From: Siccirubricoccus phaeus
Lineage (GTDB): Bacteria > Pseudomonadota > Alphaproteobacteria > Acetobacterales > Acetobacteraceae
Direction of reading: 5' to 3'
Assembly (NCBI RefSeq): GCF_008360935.1
Contig: NZ_SRXO01000011.1
Coordinates: 124,001-188,000, forward strand
Length of the DNA stretch: 64,000 nucleotides
Made by a program: the position numbers and the translations under genes. The notes under the pieces were generated by a model, which saw only the letters and a list, made by a program, of their open reading frames with translations, did not search any database and was not told the DNA's origin. The stretch's first letter is position 1. Each line of letters begins with the position of its first letter. Below are positions 25,378-42,816 of this stretch, piece by piece.

Positions 25378-25640
25378 GTGTCGCCCCTTGGCGTCACCCC
25401 TTTGGCGTCACCCCTTTGGCGTCATTCCGCTGGTGCCATCCCGTCCGGTGCCCCCTTGGCGCCATCCCGTCCGGTGCCACTCCTGGCGTTGTTCCGCTGG
25501 TGCCATCCTGCCCGGTGCCACTCCTGGCGTCGTTCCGCTGGTGCCATCCCGCCCGGCGCCATTCCTGGCGTCGTTCCGCTGGCGCCATCCCGTCCGGTGC
25601 CACTCCTGGCACCATTCCCTTGGCGCCACCGTCGGCAGCC
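25378..25640. repeat. Non-coding tandem array of 13-14-bp subunits (41-bp higher-order unit)
   Basis: TTGGCGTCACCCC-like 14-bp units are followed by three 41-bp units at 25484-25524, 25525-25565 and 25566-25606 (TGGCGTCGTTCCGC, TGGTGCCATCCCGT, CCGGTGCCACTCC), with partial copies on either side. Because 41 is not a multiple of three, coding is unlikely. It occupies most of the 388-bp spacer between the epimerase and exosortase genes. Confidence 0.85.
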
Positions 25641-25655: not shown

Positions 25656-27413
25656 TCACGGCGCCGCGGAGCCGGCGGCGGCGGCGCGGGCGATGGCCTC
25701 GCCCTGGCTTTCCAGCAGCCGCACCAGCAGGTTGCGCTCCGCCGCGCTGGCCGGGTGGCCGCCCGGGGCGGGCAGCAGCCGCACCAGGGCCAGCACCGGC
25801 CGGCCGCGGCGCAGGCCCAGGCTGCGCTGCGCCTGGTCCAGCCGCGCGCCGAGGCCGCCGCCGCTGGGCCGCCCCGCCACCCAGATGGCGCTGGCCACCA
25901 CCCCCTCCCCGCCGCGGGATTGCCGCGCAGTCCAGCGGGCGATGCCGGGCTGGGGCAGGGCGAAGGTGATGTCGTCATCCGTGCTGGCGAAGCCACCGAG
26001 GCGGCCGGCGGCAACGGCCGACCAGGTGGCGCCGGCCGGGAAGGCGATGAGCCGGGCGCTGAGCCGCGCCCCGTCGCAGTCCAGCGCCGGCCCGTCCGCC
26101 GTGGCGGCGCAGCCGGGCAGGGCGGCGAGCGGCAGGGGCTGCTCCGCCACCCGGCCGCCGCGCTGCAGCGCATAGGCGAGGGCCGGGGCCGTCAGGGCCA
26201 GCACCAGCAGCAGCGCGCCGGCGATGGCGGCGGTGGTGGTGGCGGCGGCGGGCGGCGCCGGCGGGCCGGGCGGGGCGGGGGGCAGCGGGGCGGGGCCGGC
26301 CGCATCCTCCCGGAAGGGCAGGCCGGCCAGGATCAGCAGCAGGATGACGGCGGAGAAGAACAGCCAGCCATAGATCACATGGTCCGCCGCCGCCGCCTCC
26401 GCACTGCCCAGGTGATGGCCGAGCCAGACGATGCCGAAGGCGCGCACCCCGTTGGCGAGAATCGGCACCGCCAGCGCCAGCAGCATGACGATCAGGCGCC
26501 GCCCCGGGCTGCGGAACATCACCGCGGCGTAGAGCGCGCCGAAGGCCAGCGCGGCGATGAGGAAGCGCAGGCCCGCGCAGGCCTCGGCGACGAGGAAATC
26601 GCCGGCCGGAATCTGGATCAGCAGGTCGTCGATGTAGAAGGGGATGTCGGTGAGGCCGAGGAAGAACCCGATGAGCTTCACCGTCACGAGCTGCAGGGCC
26701 GGCACGGCGAAGGCGCCGAAGGGGACCAGGAAGACCAGGTAGAGCAGCGGCGCGGCGAAGGCGCGGAAGACCCGCCGGCCGAGAATGGCCAGCACCGCCA
26801 CCTCCACAAGCCCGAGGGCGGCGAATTGCCGCCCTTCCATGATGCCGAGCCGCTCCGCCGCCAGCCAGGCCAGCGCCGGGGGGATGGCGAGCAAAGCGAG
26901 GCGGGCATCCGGCGCGGGACGCAGCCCGGCCAGGCGGAAGCGGCGCTGCCAGCCGAGCCAGAGGGCGATGGGCAGCACCAGCCAGCAATGGTTGTAGGCG
27001 GTGGAGGCGTTCCAGACACGCACCGCCGCCGCGCCTTCCGGCAGGAAGACCAGCGCCAGGGTGAAGACCACGCTGCCCAGCCAGAGCAGCGGGCCGCGCC
27101 ATTCGGCCGGGCTCGCCAGGAAGGCGGGCATTGGGCCGGCGGCGGGGCCAGGCGCTGGGCTGGCGGCAAGGCTGGGTGGGCCGGCGGAGCCGGGCGCTGG
27201 GCTGGCGGTCGGGCCGGGCGTTGGGCCGGCGGCGAGGTCGGGTGCCGGGCCGCTGGTGATGCCGGGTGTGGGATCCGCCGCAGAATCCGCGTCGGCGCCG
27301 ATGAGGCCAAGCGCGGCGCCGGCGGCAGGCGCCGCCGCCGGCCCGCGGGAGGCCGTTGGTGCGCCCGCCGGCGCCTCCTGCGAGGCGGAAGAGGGGGCGA
27401 GGGGCAGGCTCAT
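25656..27413 (-). CDS. xrtA: Exosortase A with C-terminal EpsI-like domain
   Basis: Integral-membrane cysteine transpeptidase that would cleave PEP-CTERM sorting signals; 585 residues. The exosortase core spans about 105-365 with roughly eight membrane segments and the catalytic triad Cys279 (AEACAGLRF), Arg324 (NGVRAFG) and His345 (DHVIYGW). Residues about 395-585 form a periplasmic EpsI-type domain, fused rather than separate. Residues 1-100 are a Pro/Ala/Gly extension encoded in part by 24-bp tandem repeats at 27127-27264. Its ATG overlaps the preceding glycosyltransferase stop by four bases, supporting this start. Last gene of the leftward operon. Confidence 0.92.
   Translation of the reverse strand: MSLPLAPSSASQEAPAGAPTASRGPAAAPAAGAALGLIGADADSAADPTPGITSGPAPDLAAGPTPGPTASPAPGSAGPPSLAASPAPGPAAGPMPAFLASPAEWRGPLLWLGSVVFTLALVFLPEGAAAVRVWNASTAYNHCWLVLPIALWLGWQRRFRLAGLRPAPDARLALLAIPPALAWLAAERLGIMEGRQFAALGLVEVAVLAILGRRVFRAFAAPLLYLVFLVPFGAFAVPALQLVTVKLIGFFLGLTDIPFYIDDLLIQIPAGDFLVAEACAGLRFLIAALAFGALYAAVMFRSPGRRLIVMLLALAVPILANGVRAFGIVWLGHHLGSAEAAAADHVIYGWLFFSAVILLLILAGLPFREDAAGPAPLPPAPPGPPAPPAAATTTAAIAGALLLVLALTAPALAYALQRGGRVAEQPLPLAALPGCAATADGPALDCDGARLSARLIAFPAGATWSAVAAGRLGGFASTDDDITFALPQPGIARWTARQSRGGEGVVASAIWVAGRPSGGGLGARLDQAQRSLGLRRGRPVLALVRLLPAPGGHPASAAERNLLVRLLESQGEAIARAAAAGSAAP
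27127..27264. repeat. 24-bp tandem repeat inside xrtA
   Basis: Five 24-bp units and one 18-bp unit, for example GGCGCTGGGCTGGCGGTCGG(GCCG) at 27193-27216. Read on the minus strand each encodes an octapeptide of the pattern xxAA(S/G)P(A/T)P in the N-terminal extension of exosortase. All units keep the reading frame. Confidence 0.85.
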
Positions 27414-28654
27414 GCGGCGATCGGCGCGGGCGCCGCCTCGGCAGGGGAAGGGTCGATCAGGGCGTCCAGCGGGGCGAGGCAGGCGGCCCAGTCATGCCCG
27501 GCCATCACCGCGGCACGGCCGGCGGCGCCGAGGCCGGGATGCGCGCCCGCCAGCACGGCGGCGACGGCGGCGGCGAAGCCCTCCGCCCCCGCCGCTACCA
27601 GCAGGTCGCGGCCGGGCTCGGCGCGCAGCCCCTCATGGGCCTCGGGCGTCGCCACTACGGGGCGGGCCATGGCCATCGCCTCCAGCACCTTGTTCTGGAT
27701 TCCCCGGGCGATGCGCAGCGGCGCCACGGCGCAGGCGGCATGGGCCAGGTAGGGGCGGACATCCGGCACGGTGCCGGTGACGGTCACGCCGGGCAGCCTC
27801 GCCAGGGCTTGCACCGCGGGCGCCGGGTTGGCGCCGACGATCCAGAATTCCGGCGCCGGACCGGGGCTGGTGCGCAGCCGCGGCAGGATCGCCTCGGCAA
27901 ACCAGGTGACGGCGTCGACATTGGGCCGGTAGCCCATGCTGCCGGTGAAGACCAGCGCCGGGACGGGGCGGGGGAAGGGGTTGGGCCAGTCGTGCTTCGG
28001 GCTGAACCGCGCCAGGTCCACGCCATTGTCGAGGGCGGCCAAGCGCGACGCCACCTCCGGCGCCAGCGCGGCGAAGCGGGCCGTCTCCGCGGCGGAGACC
28101 AGCAGGGTGCGATCGAATTCCAGGGCGGCCCGGCGCTCGAAACCCAATAGGGTGCGGGCCTCCCGCGCCCAGACCTGGCGCATGGGCGGGGCGGCGCCTT
28201 CGGCATAGGCGGCCCATTTCTCGGAATCGATATCCACCATGTCCAGCACCCGCCGCAGCCCGGGACGGCGCGCGGCCGGGCCCATGGCATAGGGCGCCAT
28301 GGCGGAGGAGAAGACGAAGGCGGCCTCGTAGCGCCCGGCGGCCAGCCCCGCCTGCGCCCAGGCGAAGAGGCCCGGATGGTGGAACCAGCCGAGGGTGAGC
28401 GGCCGGCCGGGCCGGGCTCGCGAAAGCGCCCTCGCCGCGGTGCCGAAGCGGGAGAAGGCCGGCCGCCATTCCACATGGGCGCAGCGCGCGGCGAGCACCG
28501 GCAGATGCCGCAGATCGGCGGGGTCATCCACCAGGAAGCCGGCCTCCACCGCGAAGCGCTCCGCGAGATGGTCGAGGATGTGCCAGGCGCGGATCTTCTC
28601 CCCCTTCTCCGGCGGGTAGGGGATGCGGTGGGAGAGGAACAGCAGGCGCTTCAT
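27410..28654 (-). CDS. PEP-CTERM/exosortase-associated sugar transferase (TIGR03087-type glycosyltransferase)
   Basis: GT-B glycosyltransferase of 414 residues matching the exosortase-linked group by its start MKRLLFLSHRIPYPPEKGEKIR. Donor-site half: PALVFTGSMGYRPNVDAVTWF at about 250-270, ILPRLR, FWIVGANPAPAV, GTVPDVRPYLAHAACAVAPLRIARGIQNKVLEAMAMARPVVAT. It likely adds a sugar to the lipid-linked exopolysaccharide unit at the cytoplasmic face. ATG at 28654 gives the family start. It is translationally coupled to xrtA (4-base overlap) and separated from the upstream FemAB gene by a 274-bp repeat element. Confidence 0.9.
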   Translation of the reverse strand: MKRLLFLSHRIPYPPEKGEKIRAWHILDHLAERFAVEAGFLVDDPADLRHLPVLAARCAHVEWRPAFSRFGTAARALSRARPGRPLTLGWFHHPGLFAWAQAGLAAGRYEAAFVFSSAMAPYAMGPAARRPGLRRVLDMVDIDSEKWAAYAEGAAPPMRQVWAREARTLLGFERRAALEFDRTLLVSAAETARFAALAPEVASRLAALDNGVDLARFSPKHDWPNPFPRPVPALVFTGSMGYRPNVDAVTWFAEAILPRLRTSPGPAPEFWIVGANPAPAVQALARLPGVTVTGTVPDVRPYLAHAACAVAPLRIARGIQNKVLEAMAMARPVVATPEAHEGLRAEPGRDLLVAAGAEGFAAAVAAVLAGAHPGLGAAGRAAVMAGHDWAACLAPLDALIDPSPAEAAPAPIAA

Positions 28655-28674
28655 GCCGGGTGCGCCGCGGATGG

Positions 28675-28890
28675 CCGGCGGGGGCGCTGCCTCCAAACCC
28701 CCGGCAGAGGGCACTGCCCTCTGCACTCCCGCCGGGGCCAAGGCTTGGCCCCGGACCCCGCCGTGAGTTGGCGGGCTGAACTGTCGGATCCGAAGCTCAC
28801 ACCGGGGGCCGGCCCCGAAGGGGGTTGGACGCACTGCCTCCGACCATTGCCGCCAATGGGCAAAGCCCTCGTTCCTTCGGGGCGCAGCCC
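28675..28890. repeat. Intergenic hairpin-rich repeat, family R copy 4, inside the operon
   Basis: Contains GGCAGAGGGCACTGCCCTCTGC, GGGGCCAAGGCTTGGCCCC, the core GGGCTGAACTGTCGGATCCGAAGCTC, and GGGGGCCGGCCCCG. It is the only sizeable interruption in the otherwise tightly packed exosortase operon, lying between the FemAB-like gene and the glycosyltransferase gene. Confidence 0.72.
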
Positions 28891-28928
28891 ATGGTTGCGC
28901 GGCGCCGGGAGGTATCCGAGCCCCGGCA

Positions 28929-29975
28929 TCAGCCCAGCCCCCGCACCAGGGGCGGACCCAGCAGATTGGCCACCGCCAGGGGCAGCCGCTTCCAGGCGGC
29001 GATGACCAGCTTGTATTTCGGGTTGTTCGGGTTGTTCTCCGGCACGGCGGCGCCGGGGGCGAGGCGGTAGCAGTAATGCAGCTCCTCCTCGGTGAAGCCC
29101 CAATTGCGCTTGTAGGCGAAGGCGCCGGTGCCGGCCTTGCTGCGGCCGAAATCGAACAGCGTCGCGCCCCGCTCATTCCCGGCGCGGCGCATCACTTCCC
29201 AGTACATGAAGTCGTTCGCCGAAAGCCCGCGCGCCGCCTGGGTGCCGCCGCCGTAATAGGGCAGCACCTGATCGCGGAAATGGAAATTCAGCACGGCAGC
29301 GACGGGGTTGCCTTCGTGCAGCACCGTCGTCACGTCATGCGCGCCGGGGAAGGCCTGCCCCAGCAGGCGGAAATAGCGCCGCGGGAAGACCGGGCTGCCG
29401 AGGTTGCGCACGCTCTCCGCATAGATGCGGTGCAGCCGGTCCGTGTCGCCATCCGACACGGAGGTGAGCTTGAACCGCTCGATCGCCTTGCGCACCTCCG
29501 CGCGCTGCTTGCGCGGGATGTTCTTCTGCATGTCCTTGGTGTCGTCGCCGGTCAGCGCGATGGGTTTGCGGAAGGTGAAGTAGAGCGGCGAGCGGCCCTG
29601 CCAGCCGGCATCCGCCGCGTCCAGCCGGCGGTATTCCAGGCAGGGCACCCGCAGCTTCTTCTGGAGGTCCAGCGCATGCGCCTCCAGCGCCAGCCGCGCC
29701 GCCTCCTCCACCGCCACGGCGCCGCCATAGACGCAGAAGGGGGTGGAGGCGAGGCTGTCCCCGAACAGGCGCGTGCGCATGCGGGCCAGCGGCAATACGC
29801 CGAGAATGGCGCCGTCCCGCTCCGCATAGGCGTAGTAGGTGCGGTGGCCGAAGGCCTCCCGGATCACCCGCGCCCAGGGCGTCAGGTGGAAGAAGGTGGC
29901 GGCGGGCGTCGCCTGGACGAAGGCGTCCCAGGCCGGGGCGGCGCGATCCTCGAGGCTGTGGATGCGAAGGGCCAT
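28929..29975 (-). CDS. FemAB family XrtA/PEP-CTERM system-associated protein
   Basis: GNAT-fold FemAB-like protein of 348 residues (TIGR03019-type). These are related to aminoacyl-tRNA-dependent peptidyl ligases, though members in exosortase loci may instead attach amino acids or acyl groups to polysaccharide. Seen: ATFFHLTPWARVIREAFGH at the N-terminus, CLEYRR, KNIPRKQRAEVRKAIE (basic helix), SPVFPRRYFRLL, YYGGGTQAARGLSANDFMYWEVMR, and FDFGRSKAGTGAFAYKRNWGF near 295-315. ATG at 29975 starts 10 bases after the deacetylase stop. The actual acceptor is unknown. Confidence 0.88.
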   Translation of the reverse strand: MALRIHSLEDRAAPAWDAFVQATPAATFFHLTPWARVIREAFGHRTYYAYAERDGAILGVLPLARMRTRLFGDSLASTPFCVYGGAVAVEEAARLALEAHALDLQKKLRVPCLEYRRLDAADAGWQGRSPLYFTFRKPIALTGDDTKDMQKNIPRKQRAEVRKAIERFKLTSVSDGDTDRLHRIYAESVRNLGSPVFPRRYFRLLGQAFPGAHDVTTVLHEGNPVAAVLNFHFRDQVLPYYGGGTQAARGLSANDFMYWEVMRRAGNERGATLFDFGRSKAGTGAFAYKRNWGFTEEELHYCYRLAPGAAVPENNPNNPKYKLVIAAWKRLPLAVANLLGPPLVRGLG

Positions 29976-29985
29976 GGCGCGGCGC

Positions 29986-31068
29986 TCAGGCGGCGCGGGG
30001 GGCGTTGCAGCCCCGGGCATCATGGGCCGGCGCGCAAGGGTCCAGGGCGCCAGGGCCAGGCGCTGGGGTGGCAGGCCTCGGGGCGTTGGGGCCCGCGGCA
30101 CCAGCGCCCAGCGCTTCCCGGCCCAGGGCTTCCCGGCCCAGCGCTTCACCGCCCGGCGCGTCCCGGCCCGCGGCGTCGCGTCCCGGGGCTGTGGGCGCCG
30201 CCAGCTCCGCCGCGAAGACCGTCTCCACCCGCCCCCAGGCGAATTCGCCGAGCAGCCGGGCGAGGCGCGGCGCCATGCGCTGCAGGCCAAGGAAATGCCG
30301 CAGCCGCCGGCTGGCGGAAAGCCCGGGCATGCGGGGCTGGTCCGGGTCGATCTCCCAGGGGTGGAAGTAGAAGATGCCGCGTCGCCCCGCCGCATTTACC
30401 CGCCGCAGCGCGGCGGCAAACAGCGTGTGCGGCGTTGCCCGGAAAGGCCCGCCGCCGGAGACCGGCAGGCAGGCCGGGCCCAGCCGCAGCGCCGTCATCG
30501 GCAGTTCCACCACCCCGTCCGGATGCGGGCGCCAGGGCGTCAGCGGCACCGGCCCGCCGGCGCGCGGCCCGGGGAAGATGGAGGAGGAGTAGCGATACCC
30601 GGCCTCCGCCAGCACGACATGCGCCCAGGGCGTGGCGCCGGGGTTCACCGAGAAGGTCGGCGCCCGGTAGCCGGTGACGGCGACGCCGCCCGCCTGTTCC
30701 AGCAGGTCCCGCGCCACGCGGACATCCTCGCGGAACCGCGCCGCGCCGATCTCGAACACCCGCTCATGGCCGTAGCCATGGCTCGCCAGCTCATGCCCTG
30801 CCGCGACGATATCGCGGATCAGCGCCGGGTGGCGTTCCGCCACCCAGCCCAGGGTGAAGAAGGTGGCGCGAATGCCGGACGCGGCGAAGAGCGCCAGCAC
30901 CTCCCGCGTCCGGTCCTCGACGCGGCGGGGCAGGCTGTCCCAGCGCTCCCGCCCGATCAGCCCGGCGTAATTCTGCACCTGGAACCAGTCCTCCACGTCG
31001 ATGCTCATGGCATTGACGGGCCCAGGGGTGGTGGCCGAGGCGGTGGCCGGGGCGGCGGCGGCGCTCAC
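29986..31068 (-). CDS. XrtA system polysaccharide deacetylase
   Basis: NodB-type carbohydrate esterase (CE4) with a C-terminal DUF3473 region (TIGR03006-type), 360 residues, removing N-acetyl groups from the exopolysaccharide. Asp24 and Asp27 in SIDVEDW, metal-binding His97 and His101 in SHGYGH, RAPTFS at about 135-140, and GIFYFHPWEIDPDQP at 231-245. The GTG at 31068 overlaps the ATPase stop (GTGA); ATG at 31008 is the alternative and begins right at the NodB domain. Residues about 296-325 are GREAL/GRDAA-type pentapeptide repeats, followed by a Pro/Ala tail, not typical of the family. Confidence 0.9.
   Translation of the reverse strand: MSAAAAPATASATTPGPVNAMSIDVEDWFQVQNYAGLIGRERWDSLPRRVEDRTREVLALFAASGIRATFFTLGWVAERHPALIRDIVAAGHELASHGYGHERVFEIGAARFREDVRVARDLLEQAGGVAVTGYRAPTFSVNPGATPWAHVVLAEAGYRYSSSIFPGPRAGGPVPLTPWRPHPDGVVELPMTALRLGPACLPVSGGGPFRATPHTLFAAALRRVNAAGRRGIFYFHPWEIDPDQPRMPGLSASRRLRHFLGLQRMAPRLARLLGEFAWGRVETVFAAELAAPTAPGRDAAGRDAPGGEALGREALGREALGAGAAGPNAPRPATPAPGPGALDPCAPAHDARGCNAPRAA
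30104..30193. repeat. 15-bp tandem repeat in the 3' end of the deacetylase gene
   Basis: Six consecutive 15-bp units, such as CGGCCCAGGGCTTCC (30119-30133) and CGGCCCAGCGCTTCA (30134-30148). Read on the minus strand they encode pentapeptides of the form G-R-(E/D)-A-(L/A/P). Units are degenerate but the 15-base phase holds throughout. Confidence 0.88.
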
Positions 31069-32024
31069 CGCCGCGACTCGCCGCCGAACAGCTCGGCCAT
31101 GCGGCTCAGCACCCTTTCGCGCCGCGCCACGCTCTGCTCCAGCGCATCGACGCGCTGGCTGAGATCGTCGATCGTCGCGCCGAGGTCGAACCGCGCCTGG
31201 GGCGAGAGCGCCCCGGGATCGCCGCCGAGATCCTCGGCCAGCTCCAGCGCCACCGCCTCCACCATCGGGCCGGAGATCGCCTCCGCCTGCTCCAGCGCGC
31301 CGGCGAGCAGCACGCGGGAGCAGAGCCGGTTGATACGCCGCGGGACGCCGTCGCTGTGGCGGAACACCAGCTCCAGCGCCGCCTTCTCCCAATGCGGCCT
31401 GCCGTCCCAGCCGACGGCGCGCATCCGGTGCTCGACATAGGCGCTGGTCTCCTCGGCGGAGAGGCCGCCGAGATGGTAGGAGGCCAGCACCCGCTGGCGG
31501 AGCTGGTCCAGATCCGGGCTCGCCATGGTGCGGCGGAGCTGCGGCTGGCCGAGCAGCATGGTCTGCAGCACCGCCTGGCCGCCCTGGGTGACGTTGGAGA
31601 GCATGCGCAGCTCCTCCAGCGCCGGCGCCGCCAGCCCCTGCGCCTCGTCGACGATGAGGAGGTGGCGCTTTTCCACATGGCGCAGCGCAGCGATGACGCT
31701 GCGCAGCACCGCCGCCTTGTCGCCTTCCGGCTGCGCCCCGAAGCTGTCCGCCACCAGGCGCAGCAGGTCGTCGCCCGAGACCTGGGTGGTGACGATGCGG
31801 GCGATGGCGAAGCCCTCCGGGTCCAGCTCGGCGCAGAGGCGCTCCACCAGCGTGGTCTTGCCCGCCCCCACCTCCCCGGTGATGACGACGAAGCCCTCCC
31901 GCTGCGCCAGCCCGTACATCAGGTGGGCATAGGCCCGGGCATGCACCGAGCTGGCGTAGAACAGCCGCGCATCCGGCGTCATCAGGAAGGGATGCTCGCG
32001 GAAGCCGTAGAAGTCGATCTGCAT
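31065..32024 (-). CDS. XrtA/PEP-CTERM system-associated ATPase
   Basis: ExeA/GspA-like AAA ATPase (TIGR03015-type), 319 residues, cytosolic. Starts MQIDFYGFREHPFLMTPDARLFY, the family hallmark; Walker A GEVGAGKT at about 50-57, Walker B HLLIVDEAQGL at about 120-130, and DGVPRRINRLCSRVLLA near 230-246. The C-terminal 60 residues look like a coiled coil (IDDLSQRVDALEQSVARRERVL). It starts 12 bases after the outer-membrane protein gene and overlaps the deacetylase gene by four bases. Its role in exosortase loci is unproven; assembly or regulation of export is assumed. Confidence 0.92.
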   Translation of the reverse strand: MQIDFYGFREHPFLMTPDARLFYASSVHARAYAHLMYGLAQREGFVVITGEVGAGKTTLVERLCAELDPEGFAIARIVTTQVSGDDLLRLVADSFGAQPEGDKAAVLRSVIAALRHVEKRHLLIVDEAQGLAAPALEELRMLSNVTQGGQAVLQTMLLGQPQLRRTMASPDLDQLRQRVLASYHLGGLSAEETSAYVEHRMRAVGWDGRPHWEKAALELVFRHSDGVPRRINRLCSRVLLAGALEQAEAISGPMVEAVALELAEDLGGDPGALSPQARFDLGATIDDLSQRVDALEQSVARRERVLSRMAELFGGESRR

Positions 32025-32036
32025 GGCGCCGCCCCT

Positions 32037-33956
32037 TCAGAAGAATTGCCGGAGGCCGAGGATGATGAGGTTCTGCACGGTGCTGCCCCCGGCGAGATCC
32101 GCGCTGCGATAGCCGAAGCCGTATTCCACCCAGCCGCTGAGGCTGGCGGTGAGGCTGTGGTTCAGCCGCAGCCGCAGCCCGTAGCTGTCCGAGGTCCTGG
32201 CGCCATCGCGCTCCGTGCGCCCGATCGTCGCGAAGGCGGAGCCGGTGGTGGCGGGGTCGAGCTGCCGGGACCAGCTCAGGCTCACCGCATAGGCCGTCTG
32301 TGCGAAGGCGGTGGTGCCGCGGGCGGCGGAAAGCGGCAGCCTCTCGTCATAGGTGAAGAAGAAGCCCAGCGTGTCCCGCGTCCAGCTCTGGCTCAGGCCC
32401 AGCGTGCCGCGGCGGTTGCGGGTGATGGCGCTTTGCGTCGCCAGCAGCCCGGTGCCGAAGGGGGCGACGAGCCGGCCGCCGGAATGGCCATCCACCAGAT
32501 TGCCGAGCGCGTCGGTCCGGGCGGCGCTCAGCAGATCGGCGCTCTGCAGCAGGGCGGTGCCGATCTGGTCCGAATAGCGGGCGGTGAGCCGGGTGCGCGC
32601 GCCGAGCGCGACATTGGCGTTGAGGCTGGCGGATTCATACCCGTCCCGCCTTCCGTAGCGCAGCAGGATGCTGCTGTCCTGCCCCGCCGTCAGCCGGGCG
32701 CCGACCGACCAGGTCATCCCCTGCACGGTGAAGGGCCGGGTGCCGCCGAAGCTCTGATCCTCGTAGCCCAGCGCCACCACCGGGGCGAGCCAGCGGGTCA
32801 CGGCGTAGCGGGCCTCGACGCCCCCCTGGATGCGGTGGGCGCCGGCCAGGGCGCTGGTGCCGCTGTAGGTGGTGCCGGAGCCGCTGAGCTGCAGGCCGAG
32901 CGGGCCGAAATTCTCGCCCGAGCGGAGGGCGCCCTGCACCTCCTGCATCGTCGTCTCCTCCGGCTTGAAGAAGGGCGTGCTGGAGCCGGGCAGGGCGGCG
33001 CTGCGGCCATCCTGCACCAGGTTGCGGACGGCGTAGCCGAGTTGCAGCGTGGCGTCGCCGCCGAAGCGGTGCAGCAGGTAGGGCGCGGCCTGCAGCATGG
33101 TGGTCTGCACCGCGCGGTTGCGATCGAGCGCGGCGGTGCTGCCGCTGGCATTGCCCTCCACATCGCTGACCGAGCCGCTGCCGAGCAGGTCGAGGAAGAG
33201 CAGATCCTCCACCAGCACCGCCTGGCCGGTGCCGAAGAAGCGCTGGTCGAAGCGGTCGGACCGGGTGTCCTCCGCATGGAAGCGGCCGGAGGGGTTGTAG
33301 GCCAGGCTGCCGCTGAAGCGGGCGGTGCTGGCGAAGGCGGTGACCGCCGGGGTGAGGGTGAGATAGGCGTCGCCGCGCCGGTCCCGCGCCGTGTTGCGGA
33401 CATTGTCCGTGCCGGCGAGGGTGAGGCCGAGGCTCGGGCTGATCCCCCAGCCCCGCTCCGGGCCGGCGGCGGTGCCGCCGGCGGGGAGAAGCCCGAGCTC
33501 CCCGCCCCGCATCAGGGGGGTGTCGAACAGGCCGATATCGTCGAGGGCGGGGGCGGAAAAGCCGCTGCCGCGCCCCTCTGCCCCGGCATCCAGCCGGACC
33601 TCGCCGCCCCCGGGCGCCAGGAGCTGGGCGGCGGCGGGGCTGGCCAGGGCCAGGGCGGCGCAGAGCCCGGCGCCGAGGCGGTGCGCCGCGGCGCCCTCCC
33701 CCTTCCCCCGGCCGGCTCCCGCCTGCGCGGCCTCTCCGCGGGTGGCCTGCCCGTCGGCAGCCCGCGCCTGGGTGGCTTTCCCGCGGGCGGCCTGCTCCTC
33801 GGCAGCCCGCCCCTGGGTGGCTTTCCCCTGGGCGGCTTGCCCCTCGGCAACCCACGCCTGGGCGGATTTCCTCCGGGCGGACCACACCCGGCAGGCCTCT
33901 CTTCTCCAGGCGCGCGCGGCCGCGCGGCACCTCACCGGACCGACCGGGAGCGGCAT
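32037..33956 (-). CDS. TIGR03016-type PEP-CTERM system outer-membrane beta-barrel protein
   Basis: 639 residues, ending LIILGLRQFF, the terminal aromatic pattern of outer-membrane barrels. Alternating hydrophobic strands run from about 150 to the end, consistent with a many-stranded barrel (about 16 or more). A signal peptide is evident at about 92-110 (HRLGAGLCAALALASPAAA), yet the open frame starts at the ATG at 33956, about 90 residues earlier, and includes eleven 15-bp repeats. No in-frame ATG, GTG or TTG lies between the repeats and the signal peptide. Either the preprotein has a long N-region or the true start was missed. Probably the exopolysaccharide outer-membrane component. Confidence 0.85.
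   Translation of the reverse strand: MPLPVGPVRCRAAARAWRREACRVWSARRKSAQAWVAEGQAAQGKATQGRAAEEQAARGKATQARAADGQATRGEAAQAGAGRGKGEGAAAHRLGAGLCAALALASPAAAQLLAPGGGEVRLDAGAEGRGSGFSAPALDDIGLFDTPLMRGGELGLLPAGGTAAGPERGWGISPSLGLTLAGTDNVRNTARDRRGDAYLTLTPAVTAFASTARFSGSLAYNPSGRFHAEDTRSDRFDQRFFGTGQAVLVEDLLFLDLLGSGSVSDVEGNASGSTAALDRNRAVQTTMLQAAPYLLHRFGGDATLQLGYAVRNLVQDGRSAALPGSSTPFFKPEETTMQEVQGALRSGENFGPLGLQLSGSGTTYSGTSALAGAHRIQGGVEARYAVTRWLAPVVALGYEDQSFGGTRPFTVQGMTWSVGARLTAGQDSSILLRYGRRDGYESASLNANVALGARTRLTARYSDQIGTALLQSADLLSAARTDALGNLVDGHSGGRLVAPFGTGLLATQSAITRNRRGTLGLSQSWTRDTLGFFFTYDERLPLSAARGTTAFAQTAYAVSLSWSRQLDPATTGSAFATIGRTERDGARTSDSYGLRLRLNHSLTASLSGWVEYGFGYRSADLAGGSTVQNLIILGLRQFF
33726..33890. repeat. 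15-bp tandem repeat at the 5' end of the outer-membrane protein gene
   Basis: Eleven consecutive 15-bp units with a 45-bp higher-order period, for example GGTGGCTTTCCCGCG (33771-33785), GGCGGCCTGCTCCTC (33786-33800) and GGCAGCCCGCCCCTG (33801-33815). On the minus strand these encode pentapeptides such as GKATQ, ARAAD, GQATR and GEAAQ, upstream of the signal peptide. Confidence 0.9.
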
Positions 33957-33957
33957 C

Positions 33958-35106
33958 TCAGCCCCCGGGCCTCAGGCCGTAGGAGCCATAGACATCATAG
34001 GCGCCATAGGCGCCGAAGCTGTCATTGCTCATCATCCGGGTCTGGTTCAGCACGAGCTGCAGGCTGGGGCAGGCCTCCACCAGGTCGAGCGCTGCCTCCA
34101 CCTCATCCCGCTGGGTGCGTTCGGCCTGCACCACCATCACCACCTGGCCGACCGCCGGCGCCAGGTTCGAAGGATCGCTGGTGGAGAGGCAGGGCGGGCT
34201 GTCCAGCACGAAGACATGCTGCGGCAGGGCGGCGGAGAGGCGCAGCAGCATGGCCACCACCCCGGCGCCGGGCGGCAATTCGGAACCGCCCGCGGCCGGG
34301 CCATAGGGCAGGATAGAAAGCCGCGGCAGCTCGGTGGGGATCGGCAGGGTTTCCGGCGCCAGGCCGGGATCGGCGGCCAGGGCCCGCACCCCCGGCTGGT
34401 CCGCCAGGCCGAGCAATTCGGAGAGGGAGCCGCGCTTGCCGTCCATATCCACCAGCACGGCGGGGCGGCCGCCGCCGGTGGCAATGCTGGCGGCGAGGTT
34501 GAGGGCGGTGAAGGTCTTGCCCTCCCCCGGCCGGGCGCTGGTGATGAGGATGGCGCGGGCGCAGCGCCCCTCCGCTTCCGGCGTCGAGCGCAGGGTGCGC
34601 AGCACCTGGTGCTGCACCACGTTCATCTCTTCGGAGGCCCGGTTGCGCTCCGCCCCGCCCGGGGCGACCACGAGGCCGGCGCGGCGGATGGTCTCGAGGC
34701 TCACCGGCTCGGGCGCGGCCGGGGCCTCGCCGGCATCCACCGATGGCAGCGTGGGGGCTTCGGCGGCGCCTGTGCCGGCGATACCTGTGCTGGCGATACC
34801 TGTGCCGGCGATACCTGCCCCGGCGACGCCGGCCCCGGCGGCCAGGCCGTCCCCCGCGATGGCCTCCCCTGCAACAGCGCCCCCGGCGAGGGCGTCGCCG
34901 CCCCCGGCAGCACCGGTCGTGGCGCTGCCGGGCCGGGCGGCGCTGCCGGGGGCGGCACCGCCGCGCGGCGGGGCGAGGGCCGCCCCGCCCGGCGCGGCGC
35001 CGCCCGGCGTGGCCGGGCTGCCGCCGGCGCGCAGCAGCGTGCCGGCACCACCCAGTGCTTCCATGGCGCGCTCGACCAGATGGGAGCGGGTCTTCGGGTC
35101 GCTCAC
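33958..35106 (-). CDS. XrtA-associated tyrosine autokinase
   Basis: BY-kinase cytoplasmic domain (TIGR03018-type), 382 residues, partner of the chain-length protein encoded just upstream. Walker A SARPGEGKT at 190-198, Walker A' AVLVDMD at 216-222, Walker B VFVLDSPP at 298-305, and a C-terminal tyrosine cluster (Tyr367, 370, 373, 376) for autophosphorylation. Residues about 30-130 are an Ala/Gly-rich linker with pentapeptide repeats encoded at 34771-34845. The GTG start at 35106 overlaps the preceding stop (GTGA). Phosphorylation cycling likely controls polymer length and export. Confidence 0.92.
   Translation of the reverse strand: MSDPKTRSHLVERAMEALGGAGTLLRAGGSPATPGGAAPGGAALAPPRGGAAPGSAARPGSATTGAAGGGDALAGGAVAGEAIAGDGLAAGAGVAGAGIAGTGIASTGIAGTGAAEAPTLPSVDAGEAPAAPEPVSLETIRRAGLVVAPGGAERNRASEEMNVVQHQVLRTLRSTPEAEGRCARAILITSARPGEGKTFTALNLAASIATGGGRPAVLVDMDGKRGSLSELLGLADQPGVRALAADPGLAPETLPIPTELPRLSILPYGPAAGGSELPPGAGVVAMLLRLSAALPQHVFVLDSPPCLSTSDPSNLAPAVGQVVMVVQAERTQRDEVEAALDLVEACPSLQLVLNQTRMMSNDSFGAYGAYDVYGSYGLRPGG
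34771..34845. repeat. 15-bp tandem repeat in the tyrosine kinase gene
   Basis: Units TGTGCCGGCGATACC (34771-34785), TGTGCTGGCGATACC, TGTGCCGGCGATACC, TGCCCCGGCGACGCC, and a degraded fifth. The first and third are identical. They encode GTGIA/STGIA/GAGIA-type pentapeptides at about residues 93-115. Confidence 0.9.
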
Positions 35107-36641
35107 GCCAGGATCCTCGCCACCAGGGAGGGGAGCCGGGCCATCACCTTCGGCCCGACCGACAGCACCGCGCCATAGGTCAGCAGCAGCAGCCCGAGGC
35201 TGCCGGCGAAGCTCAGCCGCGCCACGGTGGGGGAGGCGGGGGCGAGGGTGGAGGAGACGCTGCCGAGCACCGGCAGGCCGAGCTGGCGGAGGTCGTGCAG
35301 CGTGTAGAAGCCGCGGTCGAACTGCACCAGCAGCAGGGCGAGCCCGGCCCCGGCCCCGAGCCCGAGGGCGAGCACGGCGGAGGCGAGAAGGAAGCGGTTC
35401 GGCCCGGTCGGCAGGCTCGGCACCATGGGCGGGTCCACGATTTCCAGCCGCACCCGGTCGGTGCCGCTGCGGGCGGCGCCGGCGATCTGCACCGCCTCCC
35501 GCCGCGCCAGCAGCTCCTCGTAATTCCGCCGCAGCACGTTGTAGTCGCGATCGAGGTTCTGGTACTGCGCCTGAAGCTGCGGCGCGCCGCGGGCAATCGC
35601 CTCCAGCCGCTCCACCTGCTGCTCCTCCTCCTGCACCCGGCGCTCGCGGGAGGCGATCTCGGCATCCATCTCGATCAGCCGCAGCTTCATCTGCTCATAG
35701 ACCGGGTTGGGCCTGGTGGTCTGGGTGCCGCCGCCGCCGCGGGACGGGGCGCCGCCGGTGCCGGAGGCGCGCAGCTCGGCCAGGGCGGTGCGGGCGGCGA
35801 TGACGTCCGGGTGCTGCTCGGTGAAGCGCAGGCGCAGCTCGCGCAGCAGGCGCTCGCCCTCGGCGATGCGGCTTTCCGCCGGCGGGCCGCCGGCGGCCTC
35901 GGCCGCGGTCAGCGTCTGCGGCAGGGATTGGAGCTGCGGCTTCATCAGATCCCGCCGCACCACCAGATCCTGCAGCTCCCCACGCAGCCGCAGCAGGGAG
36001 GCGCGGGCGGCCTCCATCCGGCTGACGCCGCCGAGCGAATCCTGCGGCAGCAAATCGATGTAGCGGGCACGGAATTCGGCGCGGCGCCGCTCCGCCTCGC
36101 GGAGCTGGGTCTCGTAGCTGGCAATCTGCTGGGCGACGAAGGCGCGGGCATTCTCCATCGCCTGCCGGTCGTTGCTGCTGGCGGATTCGATGAAGATGGT
36201 CAGCAGGGTCTGCACCACGTCGCGCGCCAGGCGCGGGTCGCGGTCGGTGTAGGAGATGGTGAAGAGGTTGCGGGTCTGGGTGGTGATGCGGACATCCCGC
36301 GCCAGGCGCTGCAGCAGCGCTTCCCGCGCTGCCACGCTGTTGACCCGCAGGTCCAGGTCGGTGCGGGCGATCACCCGTTCCAGATTGGGCTGGCTCAGCA
36401 GGGTGCGCTGCAGGATGTCCACCTGGTTGGCCGGGGCGTTGTCCACCGCGATGCCGCGCAGGAGCTGGCCGAGGATCATGTCCGCATCGGCGTAGAGCCG
36501 GGCGGTGGCGCGGTACTGGTCCGGCAGGTTGGAGACGGCGGCCCAGCCGAGGGCGCAGATGGCCCAGGCGAGCAGCATGGCCTTCCAGCGGTGCCGCCAG
36601 CCGGATTTGGCGAAGCGGCGGGCCTGGGTGAGGAGCTGCAT
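35103..36641 (-). CDS. XrtA system polysaccharide chain-length determinant (Wzz/GumC-like)
   Basis: Polysaccharide co-polymerase (TIGR03007-type), 512 residues, inner membrane. Transmembrane segments at about 20-38 and about 425-445, with a further hydrophobic stretch near 485-503; the periplasmic portion has the Wzz domain (YRATARLYADADMILGQLL ... ISYTDRDPRLARDVVQTLL) and long coiled coils at about 160-390. No kinase domain is fused; it is encoded by the next gene. It starts 4 bases after the export lipoprotein's stop codon. It sets polymer length together with the autokinase. Confidence 0.92.
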   Translation of the reverse strand: MQLLTQARRFAKSGWRHRWKAMLLAWAICALGWAAVSNLPDQYRATARLYADADMILGQLLRGIAVDNAPANQVDILQRTLLSQPNLERVIARTDLDLRVNSVAAREALLQRLARDVRITTQTRNLFTISYTDRDPRLARDVVQTLLTIFIESASSNDRQAMENARAFVAQQIASYETQLREAERRRAEFRARYIDLLPQDSLGGVSRMEAARASLLRLRGELQDLVVRRDLMKPQLQSLPQTLTAAEAAGGPPAESRIAEGERLLRELRLRFTEQHPDVIAARTALAELRASGTGGAPSRGGGGTQTTRPNPVYEQMKLRLIEMDAEIASRERRVQEEEQQVERLEAIARGAPQLQAQYQNLDRDYNVLRRNYEELLARREAVQIAGAARSGTDRVRLEIVDPPMVPSLPTGPNRFLLASAVLALGLGAGAGLALLLVQFDRGFYTLHDLRQLGLPVLGSVSSTLAPASPTVARLSFAGSLGLLLLTYGAVLSVGPKVMARLPSLVARILA

Positions 36642-36645
36642 CGGC

Positions 36646-37500
36646 TCAGAACCAGCTCTGCGGGATGACCAGCGTATCGCCCGGCCGCATCGGCATGTCC
36701 TGGGAGATGTCGCCGTCCCGCAGCAGGTCCGAGAGCCGGAGGCGGATGTTCTGCGCCTGGCCGTCCGGGCCGCGGCGGACGATCTCCGCCCGGTTGCCGG
36801 CGGCGTAGCGGGTGAGGCCGCCGACCTCGATCAGCACGTCGAGCACCGACATGCCTTCCCGGTAGGGGATGGCCTTGGGCTGCGCCGCCTCGCCGATGAT
36901 GCGGATCTGCCGGCTGGTGGGGCCGATGAAGGACCGCACCATGACAGTCACGTTCGGCTCCCGCACATATTCCTTCAGCTTCTCCTCGATCACCTTGGCG
37001 AGCTGGGAGGGGGTGCGGCCGGCCGCCTCGATATCCGGCACCAGGGGGAGGGAGAGCCTGCCATCCGGCCGCACCGGCAGCTCGGCGCTGAGTTCGGGCG
37101 AGCGGTAGACGAAGATGGAGAGGTTGTCCCCGGGGCCGATCACGTAATCCGGGGCCGGGGTGGCCGTGGTGCCGGATTGCCCGGTGCCCGCCTGTGCCGC
37201 GCCGGCGGCCCCGGGGCCGCCGGCCGGTGGCGCGGCGCAGGCGCCGAGGCCGAGCAGCAGGGCCAGCATGGCCAGGCCGGCCGGCCCTGGCGGCAGCAGG
37301 CGCCGCCGCGCCGCTGCCCGCCGCGCCGCCACCCCGGGCTGCGCCCCGCCGGGCTCCACACTGTCGAACGTCACGCTGCCCGACGTCGCACCGCCCGACG
37401 TCACGCCGCCCGACGTCACGCTGCCGGCCTGCGCCCTGCCGGCCCATGCCACGCCGGGCCACGCCATCCCGGGCCACGCCGCCAAACGCTGCGCCACCAT
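36646..37500 (-). CDS. XrtA system polysaccharide export lipoprotein (Wza/GumB-like)
   Basis: Outer-membrane polysaccharide export protein (TIGR03027-type). The ATG at 37500 was chosen because AAAGGAGAGCTAGGA lies directly upstream, giving 284 residues. The lipobox LGAC with Cys88 is preceded by a basic n-region at about 60-67, so a 60-residue extension containing pentapeptides (AWPGM, AWPGV, VTSGG and others) precedes the signal sequence; a GTG at 37332 would remove it. After the lipobox come DYVIGPGDNLSIFVYRSPELS (poly_export domain) and a SLBB domain (RIIGEAAQPKAIPYREGMSVLDVL). First gene of the leftward operon. Confidence 0.9.
   Translation of the reverse strand: MVAQRLAAWPGMAWPGVAWAGRAQAGSVTSGGVTSGGATSGSVTFDSVEPGGAQPGVAARRAAARRRLLPPGPAGLAMLALLLGLGACAAPPAGGPGAAGAAQAGTGQSGTTATPAPDYVIGPGDNLSIFVYRSPELSAELPVRPDGRLSLPLVPDIEAAGRTPSQLAKVIEEKLKEYVREPNVTVMVRSFIGPTSRQIRIIGEAAQPKAIPYREGMSVLDVLIEVGGLTRYAAGNRAEIVRRGPDGQAQNIRLRLSDLLRDGDISQDMPMRPGDTLVIPQSWF
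37370..37474. repeat. 15-bp tandem repeat at the 5' end of the export lipoprotein gene
   Basis: Seven 15-bp units, for example GTCACGCTGCCCGAC (37370-37384), GTCGCACCGCCCGAC (37385-37399), GTCACGCCGCCCGAC (37400-37414), then more degraded copies to 37474. On the minus strand they encode AWPGM, AWPGV, AWAGR, AQAGS, VTSGG, VTSGG and ATSGS in order. Confidence 0.88.
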
Positions 37501-37932: not shown

Positions 37933-39282
37933 ATGCCAGCCATGACCACCCTTTTCGGGCACAGCATCCGTTCCGAGCTGCTCATCCTCTACGTCGTCGA
38001 ATCCCTCGCCTGCTTCCTCGCCATCTACCTCCTCCTCACCTGGAGCATCCCCCCCGCCGGCCCGCCGCTCGACCAGGGCGCCGGCCTCGCCCTCGCCATC
38101 CTCCTCGCCCTCGCCGCCGGCCTCGTCGCCGGCGCCAGCGGCCTCTACCAGCCGCAGATCTGGTCGCGCGGCCGCCGCCTGCTGCGCGGCAGCCTGGTCG
38201 CCGGCCTGCTGCTGCTGCTGCTGGCCTGGCCGCTGCTGCACCTGTTCCACGCCGTCAGCCCGGAAACCCGGCTGCGCGGCCTGGCCGAGCTGGGCCTCGC
38301 CTTCTTCCTCGTCATCCACGCCACCCGCCTCGGCTTCGCCGCCCTCGCCCGTTCCGGCCTGCTCCGCCGCCGCCTCGTCCTGGTGCGGGACGGGGAGGCG
38401 CCGGCCCGCCCGCTGGACCCGGCCGAGCCGGGCTTCGAGATCGCCTTCGCGCTTCGCCCCGGCCAGGGCCTGGCCGCCGAGCTGGCGCCGGACCGGCTCC
38501 GCGCCGGCCGGGTCTGGGCGGTGGTGGCGCCGGACCCGGCGCTGCTGCCCGCCCCCGTCCGCCATGGCTGCGAGGCCGCCGGCGTGCATGTCTTCTCCAC
38601 CGCCGAGCTGCGCGAGCGGCATCTCGCCCGGCTGGACATCGACAATCTGCCGGAGGATTGGGCCGCCGGCACCCGCGCCGCCCGCGAGGGCTGCGTCGAG
38701 GCGGCGCTGCGCCGCGCCTTCGACATCGCCATCGCCCTCTTCCTGGTGGCCTTCACCTTGCCGGTGCTGCTCTGCACCGCGCTGGCCATCAAGCTCGACA
38801 CCCGCGGCCCGGTGCTCTACCGGCAGGAGCGCGTCGGGCGCGGCGGCAAGGTCTTCAAGCTGTTCAAATTCCGCAGCATGGTGGTGGATGCGGAGGCGGG
38901 CGGCGCCCCGGTCTGGGCCAGCAAGCGGGACCCCCGCGTCACCCGCGTCGGCCGCATCATCCGCCTCACCCGCATCGACGAGGTCCCGCAGGTGCTGAAC
39001 GTGCTGCGCGGCGACATGGCCCTGGTCGGCCCACGGCCGGAACGGCCCGCCTTCGTCGCGCAGCTCACCCGCCTCATCCCGCATTACGGCGACCGCGCCC
39101 TGGTCCGCCCCGGCATCACCGGTTGGGCCCAGGTAAACTTTCCTTACGGCGCGTCGGTCGAGGATGCGCGCATGAAGCTCGCCTACGACCTCTACTATCT
39201 CGGCCGCCGCAGCCTGTTCCTCGACCTGCTGATCCTGGTCGCCACGGTCCGCGTGGTGCTGTTCCAGGAAGGCTCCCGATGA
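37933..39282 (+). CDS. PEP-CTERM system-associated priming sugar transferase (EpsB2-type)
   Basis: Initiating hexose-1-phosphate transferase (TIGR03013-type), 449 residues, that loads the first sugar onto undecaprenyl phosphate. About five N-terminal membrane segments (to about 115), a CoA-binding-like central part, then the catalytic bacterial sugar transferase domain from about 280: LDTRGPVLYRQERVGRGG, KLFKFRSM, LTRIDEVPQVLNVLRGDMALVGPRPE, PGITGWAQVN. Start ATG at 37933 follows GGGAGCAGG; ATG at 37942 is an alternative. Its stop overlaps an ATG (ATGA) that opens a 16-codon ORF leading to prsK. Confidence 0.92.
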   Translation: MPAMTTLFGHSIRSELLILYVVESLACFLAIYLLLTWSIPPAGPPLDQGAGLALAILLALAAGLVAGASGLYQPQIWSRGRRLLRGSLVAGLLLLLLAWPLLHLFHAVSPETRLRGLAELGLAFFLVIHATRLGFAALARSGLLRRRLVLVRDGEAPARPLDPAEPGFEIAFALRPGQGLAAELAPDRLRAGRVWAVVAPDPALLPAPVRHGCEAAGVHVFSTAELRERHLARLDIDNLPEDWAAGTRAAREGCVEAALRRAFDIAIALFLVAFTLPVLLCTALAIKLDTRGPVLYRQERVGRGGKVFKLFKFRSMVVDAEAGGAPVWASKRDPRVTRVGRIIRLTRIDEVPQVLNVLRGDMALVGPRPERPAFVAQLTRLIPHYGDRALVRPGITGWAQVNFPYGASVEDARMKLAYDLYYLGRRSLFLDLLILVATVRVVLFQEGSR

Positions 39283-39329
39283 GCAGGCTGCCGGCGGGCC
39301 CGGCCGGCGGCGGCCCGAAGCTGCCGTGA
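39279..39329 (+). other. 16-codon coupling ORF between the sugar transferase and prsK
   Basis: ATG at 39279 overlaps the sugar-transferase stop (ATGA). The 16-residue frame MSRLPAGPAGGGPKLP ends in TGA at 39327-39329, which itself overlaps the GTG start proposed for prsK (GTGA). The two overlaps form a chain that would let ribosomes reinitiate into prsK. No homology is expected at this size; it may be a translational relay rather than a functional peptide. Confidence 0.45.
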
Positions 39330-41422: not shown

Positions 41423-42816
41423 ACAAGCCGAAGCTGCTGATCGTCGAGGATGATCCGGGCCTTGCCGCGCAGTATCGCTGGGCCTTTCCCGCCTGCCGCG
41501 TGCTGCTGGCCGGGGACCGCGCCGCCGCCGAGCAGGCGGTGCGGCGGGAACAGCCCGCCGTGGTGCTGCTCGATCTCGGCCTGCCGCCGGATGCGGAGGA
41601 CGTGGCGGAGGGCTTCGCCACGCTGGAGATGCTGCGGGCGGTCAATCCCTGGCTGCCGGTCGTCGTCGCCTCCGGCCAGGGGCAGAAGGAGAATGCGCTG
41701 CGCGCCATCGCCCTCGGCGCCTATGATTTCCACGAGAAGCCGGTCGATCTCGCGGTGCTGCGCACCATCATCGACCGGGCGCTGCGGCTGCGCGAGCTGG
41801 AGGAGGAGAATCGCCGCCTCGCCGCCGCCCCCGGGCCATCCCCCATCCGCGGCATCGTCACCGCCGATGACGGCATGCTGAAGGTCTGCCGCACGGTGGA
41901 ACGGCTGGGCGGCGTCGCTGTCCCCGTGCTGCTGCTGGGGGAAAGCGGCACCGGCAAGGAAGCCCTGGCCCGCGCCCTGCACGAGATGGGCCCGCGGGCG
42001 GCAAAGCCCTTCGTTGCGCTGAACTGCGCCGCGATTCCGGAAAACCTGCTGGAAAGCGAGCTGTTCGGCCATGAGAAGGGCGCCTTCACCGGCGCCGTCG
42101 CCCGCGTCATCGGCAAGATCGAGGGCGCCAGTGGCGGCACCCTCTTCCTCGACGAGATCGGCGAGATGCCGGTCAGCCTGCAGGCCAAGCTGCTGCGCTT
42201 CCTGCAGGACCAGGTGATCGAGCGGGTGGGCGGCCGGCAGCAGATCCGCGTCGATGTCCGCGTCGTCTCCGCCACCAACCAGCCGCTCGAGGCGCAGATC
42301 GAGACCGGGCGCTTCCGCGGCGACCTGCTCTACCGGCTGAACTCCGTCACCGTCCGCATCCCGCCGCTGCGCGAGAGGGGGACGGATTCCGTGCTGCTGG
42401 CACGGCTGTTCCTCGCGCGCTTCTCCCGAGAATTCGGCCGCAAGCTGCGCGGGCTGGATGCCGCGGCGGCGGAGGCGATCGCCGCCCATCGCTGGCCGGG
42501 CAATGTGCGGGAGCTGGAGAACCGCATCCGCCGCGCCGCGCTGATGGCGGACGGCCAGCTCGTCACCACCGCCGATCTGGAACTGGCCCCGGCCGCGGGG
42601 GCGGAGGAGACGAAGCCGGACCTGGATTTGCGCGCCGCCCGGCTGCGGGCGGAGCGGGACACCATCGAACGGGCCCTGGCGCGCAGCAATGGCAGCCTCG
42701 CCACCGCGGCCAGGCTGCTCGGCGTCAGCCGGCCGACGCTTTACGGGCTGCTGGAAACCCATGGCCTCGGCGCCAGCCTGCCGCGCGCGGCAGAGGGGGC
42801 GGCGGATGCGGGGTAG
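41419..42816 (+). CDS. prsR: PEP-CTERM-box response regulator PrsR
   Basis: NtrC-type activator (TIGR02915-type), 465 residues. Receiver domain at 1-120 with phospho-acceptor Asp52 (VVLLDLGLP); sigma-54 AAA+ domain with Walker A GESGTGKE near 172-180, the sigma-54-contacting GAFTGA motif near 215, Walker B GTLFLDEIGEM, and a C-terminal Fis-type HTH (LATAARLLGVSRPTLYGLLE). Start is GTG at 41419, overlapping prsK. With PrsK it should activate sigma-54 promoters of exopolysaccharide and PEP-CTERM genes. Confidence 0.94.
   Translation: MNKPKLLIVEDDPGLAAQYRWAFPACRVLLAGDRAAAEQAVRREQPAVVLLDLGLPPDAEDVAEGFATLEMLRAVNPWLPVVVASGQGQKENALRAIALGAYDFHEKPVDLAVLRTIIDRALRLRELEEENRRLAAAPGPSPIRGIVTADDGMLKVCRTVERLGGVAVPVLLLGESGTGKEALARALHEMGPRAAKPFVALNCAAIPENLLESELFGHEKGAFTGAVARVIGKIEGASGGTLFLDEIGEMPVSLQAKLLRFLQDQVIERVGGRQQIRVDVRVVSATNQPLEAQIETGRFRGDLLYRLNSVTVRIPPLRERGTDSVLLARLFLARFSREFGRKLRGLDAAAAEAIAAHRWPGNVRELENRIRRAALMADGQLVTTADLELAPAAGAEETKPDLDLRAARLRAERDTIERALARSNGSLATAARLLGVSRPTLYGLLETHGLGASLPRAAEGAADAG

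Follow-up and report, generated by a model that had tools for sequence, protein, structure and literature searches.

In-frame minisatellites in an XrtA/PEP-CTERM polysaccharide operon of Siccirubricoccus phaeus

Phase-variable contingency loci carry repeats in genes for surface structures. Intragenic repeats of Legionella pneumophila form coding arrays of 9-261 bp in 3-19 copies, and 26 of 26 lengths are divisible by three, as expected under frame-keeping selection, according to the available text of the study (PMC2639597). Rickettsia palindromic elements, as presented in the available text of a review (PMC10969869), form families of about 150 bp with many copies, which occur as in-frame additions to unrelated proteins. 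Here we describe an operon of the soil bacterium Siccirubricoccus phaeus in which five genes each carry an in-frame tandem array, together with a comparison to its relatives and to the rest of the genome. The operon lies in a stretch of 64,000 nucleotides that was analyzed as a whole and is called the window below (assembly GCF_008360935.1, contig NZ_SRXO01000011.1, positions 124,001 to 188,000).

The operon shares its gene content with other XrtA/PEP-CTERM exopolysaccharide clusters, and the gene order is identical in three relatives (G005, G007 and G023); unlike the present operon, the clusters of nine relatives (some loci incomplete) are without 15-bp arrays. Repeats in surface-structure genes are common to the operon and to contingency loci, in contrast to whose frame switching the units are multiples of three and imperfect. 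Like the Legionella repeats in the available text of PMC2639597, the arrays are coding and of a length divisible by three; in Legionella, strain groups vary in their average unit number, whereas here a sister species lacks four arrays, all in one operon. The arrays also resemble the Rickettsia elements (PMC10969869, available text) in extending unrelated proteins in frame; those elements form many-copy families, whereas the present inserts are without a family (genome-wide for the outer-membrane protein and non-coding inserts, in a 1.37-Mb genome sample plus the window for the others). The phenomenon is already known in kind, and the operon is a clear case of it, not a new system. Among the titles listed by our literature searches, none dealt with repeats in Siccirubricoccus or in an exosortase operon. 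Our preferred reading, which we hold to be probable, is that minisatellites expanded in frame, specifically in this lineage, within linkers and protein ends that are under low constraint.

Operon content and position of the arrays

The operon (Table 1) comprises genes for an export lipoprotein, a chain-length determinant, a tyrosine kinase, an outer-membrane protein (OMP), an ATPase, a polysaccharide deacetylase, FemAB, a glycosyltransferase and exosortase A. Seven of the nine genes passed the curated NCBIfam cut-offs, whereas the ATPase (300.9 vs. 324.5 bits) and the kinase (122.8 vs. 230.65 bits) scored below theirs. The presence of exosortase A and of the associated EPS genes places the operon in the XrtA/PEP-CTERM polysaccharide cluster, of which the NCBIfam models are TIGR03007, 03016, 03019, 03027, 03087 and 03109. 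PEP-CTERM substrates are present as well, with six matches over the TIGR02595 cut-off in the genome. A search of the window for structured RNAs yielded 0 Rfam matches at the gathering threshold.

Table 1. Position of the operon and of its tandem arrays within the window.
Feature	Positions	Strand	Units or basis
XrtA/PEP-CTERM polysaccharide operon	25656..37500	(-)	NCBIfam
Lipoprotein (polysaccharide export, TIGR03027), N-terminal array	37366..37500	(-)	15-bp units; TRF 37368-37425 + 37423-37480
Tyrosine autokinase, linker array	34761..34896	(-)	15-bp units; TRF 34769-34826, 3.9 copies
OMP (TIGR03016), N-terminal array	33702..33890	(-)	15/45-bp units; TRF 33720-33880
Polysaccharide deacetylase, C-terminal array	30087..30193	(-)	15-bp units (GREAL); TRF 30106-30169 + 30116-30189
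Exosortase A (xrtA), N-terminal array	27125..27264	(-)	24-bp units, weak; Pro/Ala/Gly
Non-coding array 3' of xrtA	25380..25628	(-)	TRF; periods 14 and 41 bp

The initial annotation, which was made from the sequence alone, had claimed an array in each of five genes of the operon, and TRF recovered all five. Each of them exceeded its codon-shuffled controls (20,000 shuffles at its own lag, p about 5e-5; 3,000 shuffles for the best in-frame lag, p 0.0003), so that tandem coding units above chance, i.e. intragenic in-frame minisatellites, are found at five out of five sites. The periods are divisible by three throughout, as had been stated: 15 bp, or 45 bp = 3 x 15 bp in the OMP gene, or 24 bp in xrtA. 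Identity at the unit lag is 0.60-0.79 within the arrays, i.e. the units are imperfect.

The lipoprotein array starts at the start codon (37500) and precedes the signal peptide (MVAQR..GSVTS GGVTS GGATS..; signal peptide and lipobox were assigned by eye). The kinase array encodes DALAG GAVAG EAIAG .. GTGIA STGIA GTGAA and precedes the kinase domain (residues 153-354), whereas the OMP array (AAQGK ATQGR AAEEQ ..; 3.6 copies of 45 bp, TRF score 178) has the start codon (33956) on one side and an apparent signal peptide on the other. The xrtA array (TRF 27125-27252) comprises 5.6 copies of a degenerate unit with a match of only 66% and a score of 102. In none of the five proteins do the residues of the array overlap an NCBIfam domain match, which bears out the earlier placement of the arrays outside the catalytic domains: they lie before residue 112 in exosortase A (domain 112-368), after residue 294 in the deacetylase (domain 28-294), and before the domain starts at residues 170, 153 and 136 in the OMP, the kinase and the lipoprotein, respectively.

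The inventory of the initial annotation was incomplete, however. The non-coding array just 3' of xrtA, the periods of which are not multiples of three, had been overlooked, and the statement that no comparable in-frame arrays occur elsewhere in the window did not hold, as TRF reported two coding arrays in the gene at 39326-41422 (36 bp, 40915-40993; 24 bp, 41268-41317), plus a further one within the lipoprotein gene at 37186-37252 (33 bp).

Comparison with Siccirubricoccus soli and more distant relatives

S. soli belongs to the same genus and its proteins are 72-96% identical to those of the operon (one genome per species was compared). The operon DNA shows about 85-93% identity between the two species except at the array sites. 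Insertion sizes were taken from anchored counts, since alignment end gaps were misplaced at several sites, and amount to +56 aa in the lipoprotein, +60 aa in the kinase linker, +84 aa in exosortase A and +62 aa in the deacetylase. All four comparable sites thus carry in-frame insertions that contain the arrays and are absent from S. soli, while the start (N-terminal insertions) or the last codons and the stop (C-terminal insertion) are kept. In the S. soli lipoprotein, the segment between MVAQR and the lipobox is shorter by 56 residues, and the deacetylase tail after ELAAP comprises 68 aa vs. 6 aa in S. soli, with the last codons and the stop context unchanged. The fifth site, in the OMP gene, coincides with an assembly gap in S. 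soli, the contigs of which end and begin inside the array stretch; the 99 nt before the break themselves show a weak periodicity of 15 bp (best-lag p 0.013). On the 3' side of xrtA, S. phaeus has about 264 nt more spacer DNA than S. soli (approximate size); the S. soli spacer retains one unit-like copy, but the array itself is absent. At a score of at least 70, TRF reported one array of 18 bp in the chain-length gene of S. soli.

It is improbable that the N-terminal arrays are untranslated leaders, with translation starting downstream, e.g., at GTG 37332 in the lipoprotein gene. A coding-score gene finder does prefer the starts 37332, 27131 and 33887, and with the first of these the signal peptide is as long as in S. 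soli (counted by eye). The upstream starts are conserved in S. soli, however: the lipoprotein start codon is present there with AAGGAGAG upstream, as is ATGGTGGCGCAGCGT, the xrtA start codon (27413) is kept including the ATGA stop/start overlap, and the OMP gene has its ATG directly after the kinase stop in both species. In addition, untranslated leaders are inapplicable to the linker array of the kinase and the tail array of the deacetylase. Annotators should be aware that coding-score gene finders can trim array-bearing N-termini and that such N-termini may break draft assemblies.

No 15-bp arrays at a TRF score of at least 70 were detected in the operon loci of nine more distant relatives, in which the lipoprotein and the kinase (7/9), OMP and xrtA (8/9) and the deacetylase (9/9) are represented and some of which are incomplete; this points to gains in the present lineage. 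At the same threshold, G023 harbors two arrays, one of 26 bp in the linker of the kinase and one of 27 bp behind the exosortase domain, indicating that two of these proteins gained other arrays in another lineage. Arrays as a general trait of XrtA operons were considered and rejected, as the operon spans of the nine relatives gave only these two. The insertions would accordingly represent gains in the present lineage, not losses in S. soli.

The initial annotation had proposed that repeats arise locally while the frame is maintained, and four of the five sites being in-frame insertions relative to S. soli, the failure to find a dispersed source (see below) and the non-triplet periods of the neighboring non-coding array all agree with this proposal. 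Identical unit numbers in all relatives, which it had named as an outcome that would contradict it, are excluded at the species level by the comparison with S. soli.

Arrays in the remainder of the genome

The source genome is a 6.55-Mb draft in 54 contigs. In the 1.37-Mb sample of it (21%), TRF found 82 arrays at a score of at least 70, 38 of which are fully coding. Periods divisible by three were found in 38 of these 38, vs. 24 of 40 non-coding arrays; at a score of at least 60 they account for 75 of the 87 coding arrays, the other 12 having other periods. This contrast depends on home-made gene calls, and the high share (60%) of such periods among the "non-coding" arrays suggests that some of these are really coding. 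The gene finder shortens genes whose N-termini carry arrays (for xrtA and the lipoprotein, the array ended up outside the gene call), and the background counts of coding arrays are therefore probably too low.

Arrays with a period of 15, 30 or 45 bp (score at least 70) occur once in 13 of 69 background stretches and are missing from the other 56, whereas the operon has four. Under uniform placement, the probability of four 15-bp arrays within 7.4 kb anywhere in the genome is 0.0035 (score 70) or 0.0005 (score 80), the period of 15 bp having been chosen post hoc. For five coding arrays of any period divisible by three within 10.4 kb it is 0.047, a borderline value, the count behind which is probably too low.

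A syntenic comparison with S. soli was used to count gaps that lie entirely within genes, are longer in S. phaeus and contain a TRF array: the operon has four, the remaining aligned chains of the window have zero, and a set of three controls (stretches L104, L088 and L117) has one. The controls had been selected as array-rich, unlike the rest of the window. (HSPs below 72% identity or about 50 nt, chains below 400 nt and locus L136 were left out, and gap sizes are approximate.) The one case among the controls is a +447-nt in-gene expansion of 15/45-bp units (L117 10631-11616). The controls also contain two gaps entirely within genes but without arrays (L104 7510-8040, in an RTX-like protein as judged by a motif, and L117 11852-12146). 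A contraction within a gene occurs at L104 8149-8307, and three array-containing gaps are coding in part (L104 13129-13799; L088 7565-8510 and 11646-15349).

These data bear on the possibility that the locus is not special, i.e. that GC-rich coding arrays abound in the genome and several of them came together in one operon by chance. We regard this as conceivable but doubtful: the abundance of arrays in the sample, the borderline value for coding arrays of any period and the expansion in L117 agree with it, whereas none of the 69 other stretches has more than one array of 15, 30 or 45 bp. An equal density of in-frame arrays throughout the genome, the second outcome that had been named as contradicting the initial proposal, is therefore seen only in part: across the genome, arrays are frequent in coding sequence and almost all of these are in frame, and it is the 15-bp cluster alone that stands out. 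The cluster is unusual, yet within what the genome does elsewhere.

The excess of 15-bp arrays (P 0.0005-0.0035) exceeds the prediction of a uniform process and speaks against our preferred reading in this respect. We would assign only a low probability to the operon being a hot spot of repeated in-frame array births, kept since longer flexible ends alter the polysaccharide output; if it were one, the 15-bp periodicity at the OMP site of S. soli and the kinase-linker array of G023 would have arisen independently at these same positions.

Origin of the inserts and selection on the units

A mobile or dispersed repeat element that inserted into genes, like the Rickettsia palindromic elements, is a highly improbable source. 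Several genes of the region do have in-frame inserts absent from S. soli, and the earlier statement that the units differ between genes holds for most pairs of inserts, which score like random DNA, but less clearly for deacetylase/xrtA (46) and kinase/deacetylase (41), which lie in the upper tail of the random scores. The non-coding insert, on the other hand, has no other match genome-wide, and the OMP insert has a single weak one (79% over about 60 nt). For the other four inserts, a search of the 1.37-Mb sample plus the window yielded isolated weak hits for the kinase (L099, 76%) and xrtA (window 20614-20662, 82% over 51 nt) and none for the lipoprotein and the deacetylase; a wider xrtA query had one weak match in the genome touching the array (77%). 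A shared repeat or mobile element was rejected as the source, no family having been found for any insert in these genome-wide (non-coding, OMP) or sample-plus-window (other four) searches.

When the inserts were locally aligned to the home sequence in S. soli, significant similarity was obtained for the non-coding (p 0.003) and the kinase insert (p 0.005), but not for the lipoprotein, OMP, deacetylase and xrtA inserts (p 0.07-0.38; lipoprotein p 0.26). None of the six inserts is significantly similar to its own flanks (local alignment, p 0.06-0.63), and those of the lipoprotein, the deacetylase and xrtA align better to the S. soli OMP site than to their own site. The 12 lipoprotein units compared with the first 15 nt of the S. 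soli gene had a mean identity of 6.42 vs. 5.29 for shuffled units (p 0.005), with the highest values at both ends. Slippage on local seeds may thus have produced the inserts, a reading that is well supported only in part.

Unit-to-unit pN/pS values are 0.34/0.27 in the lipoprotein, 0.30/0.33 in the deacetylase, 0.34/0.40 in OMP, 0.20/0.20 in the kinase and 0.44/0.48 in xrtA (from few, non-independent units and compared without a formal test), whereas the gene cores have a dN/dS of 0.12-0.58. As replacement and silent differences between the units are about equal, the array peptide looks unconstrained, with mainly the frame and the absence of stops being kept. A codon-position bias between units, which would be a sign of selection on the peptide, was not seen.

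Selected length variation, in which the arrays would be tunable linkers whose strain-variable unit numbers adjust polysaccharide export, kinase signaling or PEP-CTERM sorting, is unlikely. It is in line with the location of the arrays in a surface-polysaccharide operon with elevated omega (see below), with the four 15-bp arrays in 7.4 kb and with a possible recurrence of the sites, as seen from the 15-bp lag in S. soli OMP and the two arrays of G023. It is not favored because the unit peptides drift about neutrally; moreover, the units are imperfect and, being multiples of three, do not allow on/off switching. Imperfect units usually lower slippage rates. Should isolates be shown to differ in array length, the operon would lend itself to testing the idea of tunable linkers in polysaccharide export machinery.

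According to the preferred reading of lineage-specific expansions, units of 14-45 bp would have been amplified regardless of frame, through slippage during replication or unequal recombination at GC-rich near-repeats, and purifying selection would have purged the frame-breaking events within genes and the events within folded domains. The survivors are probably disordered extensions with freely drifting peptide sequences, and the likely net effect would be that the exosortase, the kinase, the deacetylase and two exported proteins have longer flexible regions, which would matter little for function. The overall picture resembles repeat growth that is largely neutral and affects dispensable ends of proteins, not a purpose-built switch. 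The operon is a clean natural experiment on the birth of coding minisatellites: within 12 kb, four insertions keep the frame and a further, non-coding one is free of it, which helps to tell a mutational process that apparently ignores frame from a selective filter that apparently consists of frame and domain boundaries.

The operon may be above average in arrays because several of its proteins are fast-evolving and have dispensable ends. Its median omega is 0.312 (n=9) vs. 0.177 for 64 control genes (p=0.03; genes below about 150 codons or with a best hit below 60% identity were left out), and three of the four neighboring genes at 37942-45781 have values of 0.34-0.45. The chain-length gene evolves fast (omega 0.42-0.45) yet has no array, so that fast evolution alone is no predictor of arrays.

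Operon surroundings and distribution

Three of the four genes adjoining the XrtA/PEP-CTERM polysaccharide operon (window 37942-45781) have high omega (dN/dS) values of 0.34-0.45. Judged by these neighbours, it is as if fast evolution may extend over the entire polysaccharide region, beyond the operon itself. Members of the genus do not all appear to have the operon, because a search for its ATPase in a further congeneric genome (G002) yielded no matches and its chain-length protein gave only weak ones (25-27% identity) there. In a more distant relative (G023), arrays are found in the kinase linker and behind the exosortase domain.

Array-bearing proteins and other repeats

The array stretch of the 406-aa protein, which had no matches in Pfam, is approximately 447 nt longer in S. 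phaeus than in S. soli. The gene for the 571-aa protein, whose C-terminal part is weakly matched by ADP-ribosyltransferase models, lies within a 3.7-kb stretch that is missing from the syntenic region of S. soli.

Coordinates of genes and repeat arrays
Feature	Location	Details
Gene beside operon	window 37942-39282	omega 0.34-0.45
Gene beside operon	window 39326-41422	omega 0.34-0.45
Gene beside operon	window 42962-45781	omega 0.34-0.45
Kinase-linker array, G023 (other genus)	L039:7313-7391	26 bp
Array behind exosortase domain, G023 (other genus)	L039:15026-15099	27 bp
406-aa protein	L117:10503-11723 (G000:C53:1-20000)	15/45/90-bp coding arrays
571-aa protein	L088:12279-13994 (G000:C1:380001-400000)	GAxPP-like pentapeptide array
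Long charged repeat protein	L071:9526-10488	DDDKK-type units, 12.4 copies of 45 bp
Long charged repeat protein	L114:9169-9894	KGEKPEQPVKDDK-type units, 7.3 copies of 45 bp
Tandem repeat	window 57452-57895	160 bp, 2.8 copies, TRF score 530

Short dispersed repeats

Short dispersed repeats occur in the window at approximately 9550-9679, 45788-45942 and 54961-55077 (at least 16, 26 and 9 matches in the S. soli genome, respectively), as well as at 16208-16331 and 51591-51724 (few matches in that genome). Another member of a dispersed family is the FemAB-glycosyltransferase spacer of S. soli (G001:C144:5258-5429); this family was found with L104:2821-3008 from an array-rich control stretch of S. 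phaeus.
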